DNA of 63,142 nucleotides from an uncultured Opitutaceae bacterium (GTDB lineage: Bacteria > Verrucomicrobiota > Verrucomicrobiia > Opitutales > Opitutaceae): NCBI GenBank assembly GCA_903919205.1, contig CAIXHE010000131.1, positions 1 through 63,142 on the forward strand, read 5' to 3'. A program made the translations under genes and the position numbers. Positions 25,668 to 36,600 of the stretch are shown one piece after another (position 1 is the stretch's first letter; every line of letters begins with the position of its first letter). The notes under the pieces are model-generated. The model made no database searches, was not told where the DNA came from, and saw only the letters and a program-made list of their open reading frames with translations.

Positions 25668-29592
<3,925 letters not shown>

Positions 29593-29600
<8 letters not shown>

Positions 29601-30848: not shown

Positions 30849-31706
30849 GTGCAACCCAGCGCAGAACAGATTCCGCGGTGGTGGCTTTGGCCCACGATCC
30901 TCTCGCTCGACGCTCCCGCCGTCGTGCTGGCCTGGCAGCGCATGCTGGCCTCGGCCGCCTCGGTCCGGGTCGGGTTCCCCGAGACCTTCGTGCTCGGCGC
31001 CTCGGTGTGGCTCGCCTACTGCGCCGACCGCTGGATCGAGGGCTGGAGACTGGACCCGGCGATCATCCGCACCCCCCGCCATTTCTTCCACCAGCGGTGG
31101 CGCTGGCCGATCGCCGCGGTATGGGTGGCCGTGCTTGCCCTCGACCTCGCGGAGTCGTTCCAGCGCCTCCCGAGGGACGAGCTCGAGGCGGGCTTCGCCG
31201 TCCTCCTGCCCGTGCTCGCCTACCTCCTCTCGCACCAGCTCGTGCACCGCAACCATCCCTGGCGCGCGCCCAAGGAAGTGTGCGTGGCCGTTCTCCTGGG
31301 GGCCGGTGTGGCGGTCTTCGTGGCCAGCCAGCCCGGGGCGCACGGGGCCGCCTCGGCCGGGATCGTGGCGGTGTTTGTGGCCCTCGCCTTCACCAACTGC
31401 GCCCTGATATCGGTCTGGGAGCACGAGGTCGACCGGAGCCACGGCCAGACCTCGCTCGCGATCCAGCTGAAGGGGCGCACGGGGCCGATCCACCTGTTGC
31501 CCTGGGCCCTAGGCGCAGCCTGCCTGGCTGCGGCGGCGTTGAACCCGTGGCCCGCGCAGGGTTTCGCCTGCGGCGCGGCGAGCGCCCTTCTGCTCGGCCT
31601 CCTCGACCGGGTGCAGGCCCGGCTCGGCCGCAGGCCGGCCCGGGTGCTCGCGGACCTCGCGCTGCTCACCCCGCTGGCGCCCCTCGCGCTCGGCGCCCTC
31701 GGATGA
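30849..31706 (+). CDS. UbiA-like prenyltransferase-family membrane protein
   Basis: A 285-residue protein with about eight hydrophobic helices. Two places match the Asp-rich motifs of UbiA prenyltransferases: YCADRWIEGWRLD (about 58-70) and the loop SVWEHEVDRSHGQTSLA (about 192-208), the latter close to the D-x-x-x-D-R-x-x-G-x-x-T/S pattern. HRNHPWRAPKE fits the Y/H-x-K stretch before helix 5. The first motif is altered compared with NDxxD. It may be a divergent enzyme that prenylates an aromatic or lipid head group. The start is GTG. The end overlaps a methyltransferase gene by four bases, as expected for a quinone- or lipid-modifying pair. Confidence 0.6.
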   Translation: MQPSAEQIPRWWLWPTILSLDAPAVVLAWQRMLASAASVRVGFPETFVLGASVWLAYCADRWIEGWRLDPAIIRTPRHFFHQRWRWPIAAVWVAVLALDLAESFQRLPRDELEAGFAVLLPVLAYLLSHQLVHRNHPWRAPKEVCVAVLLGAGVAVFVASQPGAHGAASAGIVAVFVALAFTNCALISVWEHEVDRSHGQTSLAIQLKGRTGPIHLLPWALGAACLAAAALNPWPAQGFACGAASALLLGLLDRVQARLGRRPARVLADLALLTPLAPLALGALG

Positions 31707-32368
31707 AGCGGGCAAATCCGAGCTTCGACCGTCTCGCCCGCTGGTACCGGCCCCTGGAGACACTCGCCTTCGGGCGCGACCTCGAGCGGGCGCGCTTCGC
31801 CCACCTGGGGCGGCTCGCCGCCTGCCGGAGCATCCTGCTCCTCGGCGAAGGCGACGGGCGCTGCGTGGAGCGCGTGGCGGCTCTCGTCCCGCAGGCCAGG
31901 ATCGAGTGCGTGGACGCGAGCCCGGGCATGATCGAGCGAGCGGGCCGCCGCGTGGCGGCGACGCCAGCGGCCGGGCGGATCCGTTTCACGCGCTCCGACA
32001 TCTTCGCGTTTCGTCCGCAGCCGGGGGCCTACGACGCCGTGTGCACGCTCTTCTTCCTCGATTGCTTCGACGCGGAGGGGGTGGCCTCCGTCATCGCCCG
32101 CGTCGCCCCGGGGCTCGCCCCGGGCGCCCTGTGGCTACACGCAGACTTCGTGATGCCCGAGTCCGGCTACGACCGGCTTCGGGCGCGCGCGTGGCTGGCG
32201 CTCCTCTACGCCTTCTTCAGGTGGGAGACCGGGCTCGCGGTGCACAGCCTCCCGCCGAGCGAGACCCTCCTGGGCGAGGCCGGCTGGTCCCGCGTGGACA
32301 CGCTTTCGCTTCAGCGGGGCCTGGTGCGCTCCAGCGTGTTCGTTCGCGGCTCCAAGGGCACCTACTGA
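31703..32368 (+). CDS. SAM-dependent methyltransferase (class I)
   Basis: A 221-residue class I methyltransferase. Motif I is seen as ILLLGEGDGRCVERVA (Gly-rich loop), motif II as IECVDASPGMIERA with the ribose-binding acidic residue, and motif III/IV near AYDAVCTLFFLDCF. The front RLARWYRPLETLAFG resembles UbiE-like and related small-molecule or lipid methyltransferases. The ATG overlaps the UbiA-like gene by four bases, so they probably act on the same product. Its stop overlaps by seven bases the end of the convergent coiled-coil gene. Confidence 0.85.
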   Translation: MKRANPSFDRLARWYRPLETLAFGRDLERARFAHLGRLAACRSILLLGEGDGRCVERVAALVPQARIECVDASPGMIERAGRRVAATPAAGRIRFTRSDIFAFRPQPGAYDAVCTLFFLDCFDAEGVASVIARVAPGLAPGALWLHADFVMPESGYDRLRARAWLALLYAFFRWETGLAVHSLPPSETLLGEAGWSRVDTLSLQRGLVRSSVFVRGSKGTY

Positions 32369-33753
32369 AGCTCGGCCGGCATCTGGAGGACCCGCGCCGA
32401 CAGGCCGTCCAGGATGGCCCCCGTGTGGGCCGTGGGCTTGTCACCGCCCGCGGCGAACGTGACGGTGGGGGTGAAGTCGTGCAGGAGGACGCAGTAGTCG
32501 CTGGTCACCATGATGCCGAGGAGCTCCCCGCTCTTGCTGAACACGAGGTCGCCCCGCGACGGCGCGAAGTCGCCGAAGAGGCGCTTGAAGAAGCGGTTGT
32601 CGACCCGCACGTAGCCGGGGTGCTTGGGGTCGAGCTTGAAGCCCAGCTCGCCGTAGCCGTTGCCACCGCCGCTGATGAGCACGGCCTCCGTGAACCGGAA
32701 GGGATCCTGCGCCAGCGGGTAAACCTTCGCCCCGAGCGCCGCCACCTGCTGGGCGGACACGGGGACGACGACCACGCGCGGGTCCGCCTCGAGGAACTCG
32801 ATCTGGGAGCCCGAGGACCTGTAGTCCGGGGGCCGGCTGAAACGGACTCCGATCGACTCCCAGTCCGCGCCGATCTCGCGCAGGGAGAAGGGCGTGTCCT
32901 CGACCTCCAGGAGGGCGTAGACCTGCTTGCCGTCCGTCGTGAACACCGTCTTCGGCGAGAGCTCGCGGACGGTGTTGCCGAAGAGGCCCTTCTTGGTCGC
33001 GCTGAAGGTGGTCTCCACCCGGTTCCCGAGGAAGTCGTTGTAGAGGACGTTGATCGTCATCGGTCGGTTGTCGCGGATCTCCTTCGTCAGCTCGCCGGAG
33101 TTCTCGGCGAGCTGGCCGACGCCCTGGGCCAGCTGGTTGGTGGCCTGCTCCACCTTCAGTCGCTCGGCGCGCTCGCTCTGGACCTGGACCTGGAGCTCGC
33201 TCGCCTGCGCGGCGAGCTGCTGCTTCTCGCGCTGCCCCACCGCGACGTCGATCTGGAGGCCCTCGATCTGCTTGCGCGCCTCGGCCTGCTGGCGCTCAAG
33301 GGCCGCGAGGGCCTGCTTCTGGCGCTCGCTCTCGGCCGCCTTGTCCTCGAGCGCGCGCTGCAGCTGGGCCAGCTGGCTGCGCGTCAGGGCGGCGTCGCGC
33401 GCCTCGGCCTGGTACCTCATGTTGAGGTCGGCCTGTGCCTTCTGCGTGTCGACGAGCTGCACGGTCAGCTTCTGGCTTTCCGACTGGAGCTCGGCCACCG
33501 ACTTCTCCCGGGCGGAAAGGGTCGAGTCCGCGCTCGCGAGCTTCTGCTCCAGGGCCTGCCGGGCGAGCTGCTCGTCAGCCAGCGACTGGCGCATCGCCTC
33601 CACCAGGTCCTGCTCCTTGGAGACCGCGTTGGCGGAGATCTGGTTGACGGGCGGCTGGCGCGGGCGCGCGGGCTCCGCCCTCTCCCACCGCGTGAGCGCG
33701 ATCAGGTTGAGGAAGAGGAAGTCTACGATGAACAGAAGGAGGGTCTTGTTCAT
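32362..33753 (-). CDS. Membrane-anchored coiled-coil protein, possible MotB/ExbD-like partner
   Basis: A 463-residue protein I do not recognise as a whole. Residues 4-21 form one hydrophobic helix with an acidic residue inside it (Asp11 in LLLFIVDFLFLNLIALT), as in ExbD, TolR and MotB. A coiled coil of about 170 residues, rich in Gln, Ala, Glu and Arg, follows (45-215). The C-terminal 235 residues form a beta-rich domain; near its end RGDLVFSKSGELLGIMV recalls the GDSGxPxFxxxGxLxGI strand pair of trypsin-like proteases, but without the catalytic Ser. Its start overlaps the upstream membrane gene by four bases, so the two should act together. Expected place: inner membrane, with the coiled coil in the periplasm if topology follows MotB. 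Confidence 0.6.
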   Translation of the reverse strand: MNKTLLLFIVDFLFLNLIALTRWERAEPARPRQPPVNQISANAVSKEQDLVEAMRQSLADEQLARQALEQKLASADSTLSAREKSVAELQSESQKLTVQLVDTQKAQADLNMRYQAEARDAALTRSQLAQLQRALEDKAAESERQKQALAALERQQAEARKQIEGLQIDVAVGQREKQQLAAQASELQVQVQSERAERLKVEQATNQLAQGVGQLAENSGELTKEIRDNRPMTINVLYNDFLGNRVETTFSATKKGLFGNTVRELSPKTVFTTDGKQVYALLEVEDTPFSLREIGADWESIGVRFSRPPDYRSSGSQIEFLEADPRVVVVPVSAQQVAALGAKVYPLAQDPFRFTEAVLISGGGNGYGELGFKLDPKHPGYVRVDNRFFKRLFGDFAPSRGDLVFSKSGELLGIMVTSDYCVLLHDFTPTVTFAAGGDKPTAHTGAILDGLSARVLQMPAELQ

Positions 33754-35423
33754 GTGGCGACGGCGGCCGCGGGCGCCGCCTGGGCCTCGAGGATCAGGCG
33801 GCGCTTGAAGCCGCGCACGTGCCGGATCTTGACCAGGGCGACGCAGATGATTCCGAACAGATTGGAGGAGTAGGCAGCGAGCAGGTTCGGCTCGATGACG
33901 CCGAGGACCTGGAGCACGAGGGCGGCCGCGGTGCCCATCATGCCCACGTACAGGCCGCTATCGAAGAGGTTCTCCTCGTTCTCCATGAGGCGGAGCTTGA
34001 GCTGGGGCGTGGCGCCCTGGGCGTCGATTTCGCGGATCTTGCGAAGGCACGTCATGTACATGACGACCTGGAGCGCGGCGAAGATGCCGATCGAGACGAG
34101 TGTGGAGGTTTCCATAGTGACGGGATTGTGGGGGGAAGCGGGCGCGGCGGCGGCTGCGGGGGCCGCCGCGGCGAGGACGGGCATGACGAGCTGGACCCGG
34201 TACTCGGAGGCGGGGGCCGCGCGCAGAAGAAAGGGCTCGGTCGCGACAACCAGGAGCGCGGACATCACCACAGCGAGCAGCGCCGCCCGGCCGTACGGCG
34301 AGGCGGGCTCGCCGGAGCCCCCGGCCGGCGAGACGATCCACAGGTCGAGGCCCCGCAGGAGCAGGTAGAGGCCGACCAAGTAGCCCAGGTACTTCAAGCC
34401 GAGCATGAGGCGCGGGTGCTCGAGCACGAGGGCGGCGGCGGCGCCCATGGCGGGTCCGGGGGAGCGGTTCACCGGGACCTCGCGCTGGAGCAGCAGGTTC
34501 ACCGCGCCCTGGCCGTCCGAGAGCGCGGTGTGGAGGTCCTCGGCGCCGGCCTTGCCGAAGCGGATCAGGTACGAGGCCACCTGGTCCGCCGAGTTGGACA
34601 TCATCGCCGCGGCGTAGATGAACGGAAGCTGGTCGGGCGCGACGCGGCTCAGCTGGGCGTACTCGCCCACGGTGCGCACGCTCCGCGCGCGCCGGAGCAG
34701 CTCCGAGAGCTGCACCCAGTCCAGCCGCCGGCCGAGCGAGAGCAGATCCATGTAGAACCCCTCGAGCTCCCCGAGCTGGTTGCGCTGCGCGGCGGCCTCG
34801 GCAAGGGTTCGAACCTCCCGCTGGAGCGTCGGGGAGAGGTGCTCGCCCTGGTAGAGGAGGCCCGTCAGGAGGATCAGGGCGTCGAGCGGCTGGCCGCCGG
34901 CGCGGTTCGCCGGCACAAACCTCCCCGTACCCGAGACGTCGCGGGTCTTAAGGATGGCCTGGACGCCGAGTGAGCCAGAGTTCGTGAGGTAGGTGCGCAC
35001 GGTCTCCCGCGCGGCCTCGGGGTAGAAGAACATGAGCACCGGCGTGCTGGCCGCGTGCACCGTGTGCTGGCGCAGCCTGAAGAGCGGGTCGAGCTGCGCG
35101 TCCCAGCCTCCCCAGGCGACGAGGGCGGGCTCCCTCGCGGAGAGCTCGGCAAGCGAGCGCTCGAGGGCAGGCGTCCCCGGGTCGCCCAACTGCTTGGAGA
35201 CCGTGAGAAGGAACCGCGCGGGGCCGATCTTCTCGGAGGCGACCAGGTCCCCGCCAAACGCGGCCACGGTCGGGGTGCCCGAGCCCGCCGATGCCAGCAG
35301 GCCCCGGCTGACCGACTTGAGGCTGACCGGCAGCAGCCACGCCATGACGGCGACGACAAGCCCTGCGAAGACAAGGGCGGGCGCCGATGCCGGGATCCTG
35401 CTGGAGGCCGATGGTGAACTCAT
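33750..35423 (-). CDS. Polytopic membrane protein, possible MotA/ExbB-like partner
   Basis: A 557-residue protein of unknown family. It has one helix at 14-34, an extramembrane region of about 300 residues (40-340, helical, no signal for an enzyme), then helices at about 342-364, 378-400, 440-460, 489-510 and 514-533. The last three, with a short charged loop and the segments DSGLYVGMMGTAAALVLQ and NLLAAYSSNLFGIICVAL, resemble the small-residue-rich final helices of ExbB/TolQ/MotA (G-L-L-G-T ... T-A-L-G-L). An Ala/Pro-rich linker is at 415-432. The start ATG faces the def gene divergently, and the gene overlaps the next one, which carries an Asp in its single helix. The stator-like reading is inference. 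Confidence 0.6.
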   Translation of the reverse strand: MSSPSASSRIPASAPALVFAGLVVAVMAWLLPVSLKSVSRGLLASAGSGTPTVAAFGGDLVASEKIGPARFLLTVSKQLGDPGTPALERSLAELSAREPALVAWGGWDAQLDPLFRLRQHTVHAASTPVLMFFYPEAARETVRTYLTNSGSLGVQAILKTRDVSGTGRFVPANRAGGQPLDALILLTGLLYQGEHLSPTLQREVRTLAEAAAQRNQLGELEGFYMDLLSLGRRLDWVQLSELLRRARSVRTVGEYAQLSRVAPDQLPFIYAAAMMSNSADQVASYLIRFGKAGAEDLHTALSDGQGAVNLLLQREVPVNRSPGPAMGAAAALVLEHPRLMLGLKYLGYLVGLYLLLRGLDLWIVSPAGGSGEPASPYGRAALLAVVMSALLVVATEPFLLRAAPASEYRVQLVMPVLAAAAPAAAAAPASPHNPVTMETSTLVSIGIFAALQVVMYMTCLRKIREIDAQGATPQLKLRLMENEENLFDSGLYVGMMGTAAALVLQVLGVIEPNLLAAYSSNLFGIICVALVKIRHVRGFKRRLILEAQAAPAAAVAT

Positions 35424-35491: not shown

Positions 35492-36070
35492 ATGTCCCTG
35501 GAAATTGTTCACTACAACCATCCAGTATTGCGAAAGAAAGGCGAGAAAATCACCGTGTTCAACGCGGCCCTCGGGGCGTTCGCTCAGGACATGGTCGACG
35601 CGATGCACGAGGCCCGCGGGATAGGGCTCGCCGCCCAGCAGGTGGGCCGTGCCGTGCAGCTGTGCGTGCTGGACCTGCGCGAGACCGAGGCCGAGTTTGA
35701 CTGGAAGCTCGACGGGGCGCGCACGCCGCTCGAGCTCATCATGCCGATGGTGCTCGCAAACCCGAAGGTCACCGTGGCCAAGAAGGCGCCCGCGGAGCCC
35801 CTGGAGGAGGGGTGCCTGTCGTTCCCGGAGATCCGCGGCGACGTCGTGCGCCAGACGCAGATCGTGGTCAAGTTCCACGACCAGAACGGCCATCCCCACA
35901 CCCTCGAGTGCGACGGGCTCTTGGCGCGGTGCGTGCTCCACGAGGTCGACCACCTCAACGGAATCCTGTTCATCGACCGCATGGAGAAGGCGGTGCGCGC
36001 CGGGATCGACGAGGCCGTCAAGGCGCTCGCCAAGCGCACCAAGGCCGGCAAGGCCCCGGCCGCGCCGTGA
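35492..36070 (+). CDS. def: Peptide deformylase
   Basis: A 192-residue metalloprotease that removes the formyl group from new N-termini. All three motifs are present: GIGLAAQQVG (motif 1), EGCLSFPEI (motif 2, metal-binding Cys) and CVLHEVDHLNG (motif 3, HExxH-type with HEVDH). It starts at the ATG at 35492. The stop overlaps the adenosyltransferase GTG by four bases. A short insertion before motif 2 (about 60-100) is longer than in E. coli Def but common outside proteobacteria. Confidence 0.96.
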   Translation: MSLEIVHYNHPVLRKKGEKITVFNAALGAFAQDMVDAMHEARGIGLAAQQVGRAVQLCVLDLRETEAEFDWKLDGARTPLELIMPMVLANPKVTVAKKAPAEPLEEGCLSFPEIRGDVVRQTQIVVKFHDQNGHPHTLECDGLLARCVLHEVDHLNGILFIDRMEKAVRAGIDEAVKALAKRTKAGKAPAAP

Positions 36071-36600
36071 GCATCGCGACCCGGACGGGCGACCAGGGCA
36101 CGACGGGGCTCCTGCACGGCCAGAGGGTCCCGAAGGACCACCCGCAGATCGAGGCCGTGGGCGCCTTCGACGAGCTGAACGTCGAGGTGGGCGCAGCCCG
36201 TATGCTCGCGACCGATACAGACACGCGGGAGCTCCTGCTCGGCATCCAGCGCTCGCTGGTCGCGCTCATGGGCGAGGTCGCGTGCGCCGAGGAGGACGCC
36301 GAGAGGCACTCGAGGTCGAATTTCGCGCGCCTTTCCCCCGAGGACCTGGGCGTGCTCGACCGCGCGCTGGCCGGGCTGGAGTCGAAGGGACTCAAGTTCG
36401 ACGGGTGGGCGACCCCCGGGGCGAACCCGCTCTCGCTCGCGTTCGAGCGGGCGAGGGTCGCCGCCCGGCGCGCGGAGCGCCGCCTGGCGGTGCTCCCCGG
36501 GCTCGGCCGCAGCCTGAGGCCGCTGCTCCTGCAGTGGACCAACCGCCTCTCCGACCTGCTTTGGCTCCTGGCGCGTGAGGCCGAGACCGGCCCGTCGTAG
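36067..36600 (+). CDS. Cob(I)alamin adenosyltransferase (PduO type)
   Basis: A 177-residue trimeric-type ATP:cob(I)alamin adenosyltransferase. It starts with the family's SIATRTGDQGTTGLLHG nucleotide-binding block, then VGAFDELNVEVGAAR and FDGWATPGANPLSLAFERARVAARRAER, the usual C-terminal active-site helix. It makes adenosylcobalamin from reduced corrinoid and ATP. The GTG at 36067 overlaps the def stop by four bases. The downstream DUF6580 protein belongs to a class named as putative transporters, so a corrinoid uptake link is possible but not shown. Confidence 0.92.
   Translation: MSIATRTGDQGTTGLLHGQRVPKDHPQIEAVGAFDELNVEVGAARMLATDTDTRELLLGIQRSLVALMGEVACAEEDAERHSRSNFARLSPEDLGVLDRALAGLESKGLKFDGWATPGANPLSLAFERARVAARRAERRLAVLPGLGRSLRPLLLQWTNRLSDLLWLLAREAETGPS

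Follow-up and report, generated by a model that had tools for sequence, protein, structure and literature searches.

An overlapping gene pair of Verrucomicrobiota with features of an ion-driven stator

What could be the function of two overlapping genes for which the searched copies of Pfam and NCBIfam give no family above cut-off? The question is raised by a locus of an uncultured Opitutaceae bacterium (contig CAIXHE010000131.1, GenBank assembly GCA_903919205.1), of which the whole stretch of 63,142 nucleotides was analysed and is called the window here. Gene A (33750..35423, minus strand) encodes a six-helix membrane protein of 557 amino acids (aa), a candidate stator-like channel subunit, and is described from its frame, homologues and AlphaFold2 model. 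Gene B (32362..33753, minus strand), described from the same kinds of evidence and from Foldseek, encodes a 463-aa protein with an Asp-bearing transmembrane helix, a coiled coil and an apparent pseudo-protease domain. We favour, with moderate confidence, the reading that A and B are subunits of an ion-driven, stator-like membrane motor, which forms a family of its own in Verrucomicrobiota. The pair is apparently an undescribed, distant cousin of the ion-driven motors of flagella and outer-membrane pumps: no published description of it or of a relative was found among open-licence PubMed Central (PMC) papers, and the copies of Pfam, NCBIfam and PADLOC gave no family for the A protein of the window. 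All features of the pair given below lie on the minus strand.

An invariant aspartate in a linked gene pair

In the AlphaFold2 model of whole B (pLDDT 82.4), the protein begins with a single helix at residues 3-20 (33694..33747), and this helix holds Asp11 (codon 33721..33723), as an earlier reading made from the letters of the DNA (the sequence-only reading) had expected. Conservation of this buried acid among homologues was set beforehand as a test on which the stator idea could fail. Asp11 is present in 67 of 67 aligned rows, where it is one of five invariant columns (M1, D11, F12, D324 and G413), and, phylum-wide, 131 of 132 B proteins have it. The motif was recognized by pattern in 124 of these proteins, by eye in six more and upstream of the assigned start in one (L118), and the sole B without it (L121) has no N-terminal helix. 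The alignment of B (A2) omits L118 (start misassigned), L121, L056 (an X), L083 (contig end) and L123, the last as suspected partial though its Asp is present. The Lys/Arg counts suggest that B is N-in, with its C-terminal part in the periplasm, and B would thereby show the trait of ExbD, TolR and MotB, a single N-terminal N-in helix with an invariant Asp. The Pfam profiles of ExbD and MotB gave no match for the B of the window or for five further B proteins, and neither is among the 25 families listed, out of 123, for 67 B rows.

The two genes occur together. Among 95 related genomes A was found in 70 and B in 71, both in 70 and neither in 24, and G068 has only a B-like frame of 273 aa that lacks the N-terminal helix. 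Genomes with both genes have them as neighbours, except two in which contigs end (G023 and G058) and two in which A and B lie ~70 and ~185 kb apart (G075 and G094), where both genes are kept and the Asp motif is present. The four-base overlap that had been read from the sequence is confirmed: the A stop and the B start share ATGA at 33750..33753, both frames being on the minus strand, and of 67 loci of relatives with both genes on one strand 26 have this overlap too. Gaps between A and B range from -32 to 125 bases in 66 of these 67 loci, the 67th (L118) being an artefact of a misassigned start. In further genomes, A-matching loci, long forms included, adjoin B in 20/20 and 40/40 cases, all of them selected by their A. 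Clustering of frames over 94 loci gave B as the largest cluster (92 loci) and A as the second (90 loci); the example frame of the third (65 loci) lies on the opposite strand over B, and no neighbour gene is conserved as widely as A and B. The conservation across relatives rules out that A and B are chance open frames. Two different B genes stand in one genome (loci L122 and L123 of G023), which hints at a second A/B pair there.

Beyond these relatives, A occurs in 75 of 286 genomes of a class sample and in about a third of the phylum samples (97 of 288 genomes with the long profile, 126 of 387 with the short profile). None of these 126 has more than one A match among the candidates scored, and one of the matches is a 62-aa frame with E 4.9e-4. 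Two A queries found no match in 72,556 plasmid records, and one A query found none in 50,697 phage records. Of 63 loci, 43 have a divergently oriented deformylase gene no more than 1.2 kb upstream, and because this neighbour recurs across other families of the order, the gene order argues for mainly vertical inheritance of A and B within the order.

Architecture of the two proteins

The AlphaFold2 model of A (whole 557 aa, 66-row alignment, pLDDT 88.1) contains the six helices that had been predicted, all of membrane length, at residues 13-30 (35334..35387), 337-364 (34332..34415), 376-395 (34239..34298), 439-468 (34020..34109), 489-506 (33906..33959) and 514-549 (33777..33884). The extramembrane region of 300 residues that had likewise been foreseen is an all-helical domain of about this size between helices 1 and 2 (residues 31-336, 34416..35333). 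Lys and Arg together are denser in the C-tail, the N-terminus and loops 2-3 and 4-5 (1.2-2.1 per 10 residues, 70-row mean) than in the remaining loops (0.1-1.0 per 10 residues). The positive-inside rule therefore places both ends of A probably in the cytoplasm (N-in/C-in) and the helical domain probably in the periplasm.

Conservation in A is concentrated in the final ~110 residues. The 66 rows share 23 invariant columns; all but one of them fall within F448-L543 (22 columns), and the remaining one is E396, which stands right after helix 3 and is followed by a nearly invariant P397. The conserved core begins at helix 4. Helix 5 carries G494-x-x-G497-T498, which resembles the GLxGT motif of ExbB and TolQ, and helix 6 carries A517-Y518-x-S520-(T/N)521-x-x-G524. 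When long and short forms are aligned over the core, D488, L491, G494 and G524 are invariant in 128/128 rows; position 498 is T in 119 rows and S in 9, S520 is kept in 124, and position 521 is T or N (N in the window). At position 514, where helix 6 has its outer end, 38 of the 128 rows have Arg, and the alignment has no Lys, Arg or His conserved across the whole set within residues 489-531. The 66-row alignment (A1) was made without L090, whose A stands in two frames, and without L056 and L118, both excluded over an odd B; the A gene of L056 appears whole. L090 is missing from the 128-row core too, whereas the 70-row alignment gives a row to each of its two A pieces; profile A3 was made without L238, whose assigned start lay too far upstream. 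In L090 (genome G011) B is intact, and a sequencing error may account for the split of A.

In other classes A is found in a short form of ~180 aa (171-210 aa in 14 of 15 loci, 282 aa in one with an upstream start), which is essentially the C-terminal core of long A and has four hydrophobic stretches in the one example scanned. The profiles of the two forms match each other over 113 columns (hhalign probability 99.2, E 1.6e-19), and the short-A profile recovers the A of the window at E 1.8e-16. B follows short A in all 45 loci fetched (15 + 30). In the 15 loci it has 485-629 aa, with additional residues that read as coiled coil, and the ten C-termini inspected all end in a related GD(F/L/Y/W) domain. 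Because short A corresponds to the C-terminal core and stands beside B in all 45 loci, the conserved unit is, on this sequence comparison, the A core together with the Asp-helix rod, and the 300-residue region of A is an added domain, probably periplasmic. The new accessory domains proposed earlier are thus borne out, as the helical domain present in long A only and as a Deg/HtrA-like fold in B. Just upstream of one short A/B pair (locus L239, 5823-9647) lies what looks by eye like an Rnf/Nqr-like electron-transport operon.

After its membrane helix, B continues as one long helix at residues 49-200 (33154..33609) in the model, over which coiled-coil matches were found as well. The coiled coil that had been predicted is therefore present, with a length of ~150 residues and not the 170 expected. 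The beta-rich domain placed after it was also found, at residues 234-456 (32386..33054). The sequence-only reading missed its fold: Foldseek with the whole B model returned 21 chains of the PDB at E up to 1e-3, all of them Deg/HtrA or other trypsin-like/serine proteases, with Deg2 (4fln) as the best match (E 1.4e-5) and the Deg/HtrA matches ranging from E 1.4e-5 to 1e-3 at probability 1.00.

The domain has a trypsin-like fold without the His-Asp-Ser triad. In the HtrA register the nucleophile position is R400 in the window and mostly R, T, A or K elsewhere, only 2 of 72 rows having Ser there. At the His283 position 51 of the 72 rows have His and the window has Glu, and Asp324 is kept in 71 of 72 rows, the other having a gap. 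The register comes from one HtrA sequence at hhalign E 0.37, and the positions we take to be the triad were named from the spacing usual in HtrA, without superposition. In the Ser-loop, which was found in 124 of 132 B proteins, Ser stands just before the Gly in 4 and two before it in 46. Since the catalytic Ser is not conserved, the domain reads as a pseudo-protease that appears dead, and an active protease was rejected on the same ground. B thus shares the fold of Deg2, DegQ, DegP, DegS and HTRA1 according to Foldseek and differs from them in the replaced nucleophile, the variable His283 and the PDZ domain, none being seen in the model. B was also rejected as an SMC/Rad50 protein, the matches of this kind lying mainly over the coiled coil (start 38-45, end 204-259) and far below cut-off.

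Kinship, mechanism and alternatives

Whether A is related to MotA, ExbB and TolQ was judged from a profile comparison of its last two helices. The comparison set held 28 same-phylum sequences of the 34 ExbB-type sequences found among PF01618 loci. With hhalign, A scored 21.1 (128 rows) and 21.8 (60 rows) against ExbB/TolQ, with single-comparison E-values of 0.0015 and 0.0011. These scores exceed 60/60 block-shuffled controls in both comparisons (60 each, means 11.2 and 10.9, about ±2, maximum 15.6), and reversed alignments scored 11.3-13.4. GLxGTV and (S/T)T-x-x-G-(I/L) were aligned in order in the 60-row comparison, and the GLxGT stretch only in the 128-row one. A background search of 12,576 frames, with hits filtered for at least two hydrophobic stretches, gave ExbB-type proteins as 8 of 15 non-A hits of the short-A profile and 5 of 10 of the mixed profile; in the reverse search with the ExbB side, A proteins were 17 of 19 hits.

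Several results weigh against this kinship, and with it against the stator reading. A match to PF01618, named beforehand as possible support, did not appear for the A of the window (E up to 10) or for five further A proteins (E up to 1), and the family is not among the 25 listed, out of 26, for 66 rows of A. Foldseek with the whole A model had no stator in the 50 listed of 153 matches (best E 0.68) and so did not show the likeness to MotA/ExbB in structure that the stator idea called for, and sequence searches of the PDB with the A of the window and with profiles A1 and A3 gave no ExbB or MotA entry. The hhalign probability is low, at 16.5% (128 rows) and 20.5% (60 rows), and the test was not blind, because both regions were cut around the motifs; six of the 34 ExbB-type sequences, those without the motif pattern, were excluded. 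Over the whole core, hhalign aligned the motifs in one of three versions and a different helix in two. The ExbB-type hits of the background search are mutually related and none is significant singly, and one of three inspected ExbB-type alignments matched another segment. The top non-A hit of the core profile is an RnfG-like frame (by eye, L239 locus) at 20 bits, so that scores of ~20 bits can be noise. The spacing from T to T is ~23 residues in A and ~34 in ExbB relatives (by eye), and A has no large cytoplasmic domain, as judged by the model and the Lys/Arg counts. The kinship of A with ExbB/TolQ is thus likely but remote, and A is not filed as a MotA/ExbB member. The proposal of a stator family holds for the invariant Asp, the accessory domains and the weak ExbB/TolQ profile signal, and it lacks a match to PF01618 in the results shown and to a stator among the listed Foldseek matches of whole A. 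An ordinary annotated transporter was considered for A and rejected, as Pfam gave no family for the A of the window and NCBIfam none above cut-off for six A proteins.

Contact between A and B was approached by mean-field covariation on 195 distinct A-B pairs (effective number 69). A495-B14 and A495-B18 rank first and second among all pairs of positions more than 5 apart. A495 adjoins G494 and is near T498, and by helical periodicity B14 and B18 would face the Asp11 side of the B helix. Met at A495 accompanies Phe at B14 and Ile at B18 in 18/18 distinct pairs, and Met at A495 and Phe at B14 are absent from the other 177. In a quick tree of the long forms this switch needs three changes, two of them forced by starred branches; some genomes stand twice in that tree owing to overlapping loci, and the counts were taken from distinct pairs. 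These coupled changes within the membrane agree with a contact of A and B in their sequences. Against this, two to three independent changes are too few for significance, and shared ancestry could produce the same picture.

The model proposed here for oligomer size, ion flow, rotation, direction of output and cellular role is the following. Several A subunits would encircle a dimer of B at its N-terminal helices. Protons or sodium ions would pass from the periplasm, through sites lined by T498, S520 and T/N521 of A, to Asp11 of B, whose protonation and release would rotate A and B against each other. Because A has almost no cytoplasmic mass, the output would go through the periplasm, where the coiled coil of B would transmit the movement outward. 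At 0.148 nm per residue the 152-residue helix is ~22 nm long if straight. A periplasm has about this depth, which would bring the pseudo-protease near the cell wall or outer membrane; there this catalytically dead Deg/HtrA-like domain may grip a partner in either layer. In the lineage of the window, the helical periplasmic domain of A could form a collar around the rod. The pair resembles a stator in some of its parts and probably in its mechanism too. T498, S520, T/N521 and Asp11 are elements of the same kind as in published stators: PMC10341847 gives an ion path with T155 and T189 of the A subunit and D22 of the B subunit, and T158 and T186 in PomA, and PMC9389320 gives D22 for C. jejuni.

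Like ExbB-ExbD and TolQ-TolR, A and B are a two-gene pair, in which the last two channel helices carry motifs resembling GL(L/F)GT and (S/T)T-x-x-G-(I/L), with N for the second T in the window, and the partner has one N-terminal helix, an invariant Asp and a presumably periplasmic C-terminal part. Unlike these systems, A has no Pfam match in the results shown and a very short cytoplasmic loop and tail, the A of the window has six helices and an extra helical domain, and B has the long coiled coil and the Deg/HtrA-like domain. MotA has four helices and is N-in/C-in, and GldM is a long periplasmic partner with a chain of beta domains. Short A, with its four hydrophobic stretches, would share the layout of MotA-MotB and PomA-PomB, and B is likened to GldM as a long periplasmic partner by descriptions, not by sequence. 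A differs from GldL, whose long cytoplasmic tail is described in PMC9389320, where GldL-GldM is counted among the 5:2 motors, in lacking such a tail, and B differs from GldM in combining a coiled coil with a Deg-like domain. The pair differs from MotA-MotB in that A is without the torque-generating cytoplasmic domain and B without the OmpA-like peptidoglycan-binding domain, both of them given as flagellar traits in PMC12505986.

The same parts could instead form a static tether or scaffold of the envelope, in which Asp11 would merely hold the B dimer to A and the pair would be a passive link from the inner membrane to the wall or outer membrane. The near lack of cytoplasmic mass in A, the lack of a significant stator match for it and the dead-looking domain of B, which fits a binding module, agree with such a tether; buried acids give polar membrane contacts in some assemblies, and the Arg at A 514 would be a possible acid partner in the short form. 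We consider it rather unlikely, as the Gly-Thr and Ser/Thr motifs of A align with ExbB/TolQ above shuffled controls and the stretch 489-531, with no Lys, Arg or His conserved throughout, offers no obvious general partner for the acid. The membrane anchor and Deg-type fold of B, with DegS and DegQ structures among the top Foldseek matches, also recall an envelope stress sensor like DegS, in which the trypsin-like domain would now bind a ligand and signal through the coiled coil to A as its membrane partner. A shows no cytoplasmic signalling domain, the Asp is one of the five fully invariant columns of B, and we know of no DegS with a 150-residue coiled coil or a buried transmembrane acid; such a sensor seems improbable.

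Zorya, an anti-phage system, likewise joins a MotA-like subunit to a subunit with a transmembrane Asp. ZorAB is called a remote stator homologue in PMC12505986. PADLOC gave no ZorA or ZorB model for two A and two B proteins, the hits of B being LmuB, JetC and similar, over the coiled coil. The single A match per genome, the empty plasmid and phage searches, the recurrent divergent def gene and the lack of any other neighbour conserved as widely as A and B speak against a Zorya-like system too, which we regard as very improbable. A Zorya or other defence role was rejected on the neighbours, PADLOC, the plasmid and phage searches and the deformylase context.

For the ion-driven, stator-like motor, a broader claim is possible and more tentative, namely that A and B represent a separate rotary-motor lineage that is phylum-wide and usually single-copy, with a core subunit that can be as small as ~170 residues and has hardly any cytoplasmic part, an entirely periplasmic output that turns or pulls the rod, and a gripping end derived from a protease. 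Ion-driven 5:2 motors fall into few known families, which work in flagella, gliding, nutrient import, the upkeep of the envelope and, in one system, defence against phages. If the reading is true, this class of motors would be widened by a phylum-wide pair that combines Asp-in-pore logic with a minimal channel subunit and a tip derived from a protease. Structural studies would gain a stator reduced by nature, and the pair would indicate an energised envelope process in a large, poorly studied phylum. The reading also supplies testable functions for two genes without a family above cut-off in the searched copies of Pfam and NCBIfam.

Neighbouring genes in the window

Several other genes of the window were noted around the pair. 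A gene for a 285-aa protein (30849-31706) was hydrophobic by eye and matched no Pfam family at E up to 0.001. A 1310-aa hybrid sensor kinase (25668-29600) contains PAS domains and a receiver domain, besides a CHASE match below the threshold. Downstream of the pair lies a convergent methyltransferase gene. Upstream and divergent from the pair are the genes for a peptide deformylase (35492-36070) and then a cobalamin adenosyltransferase (36061-36600).

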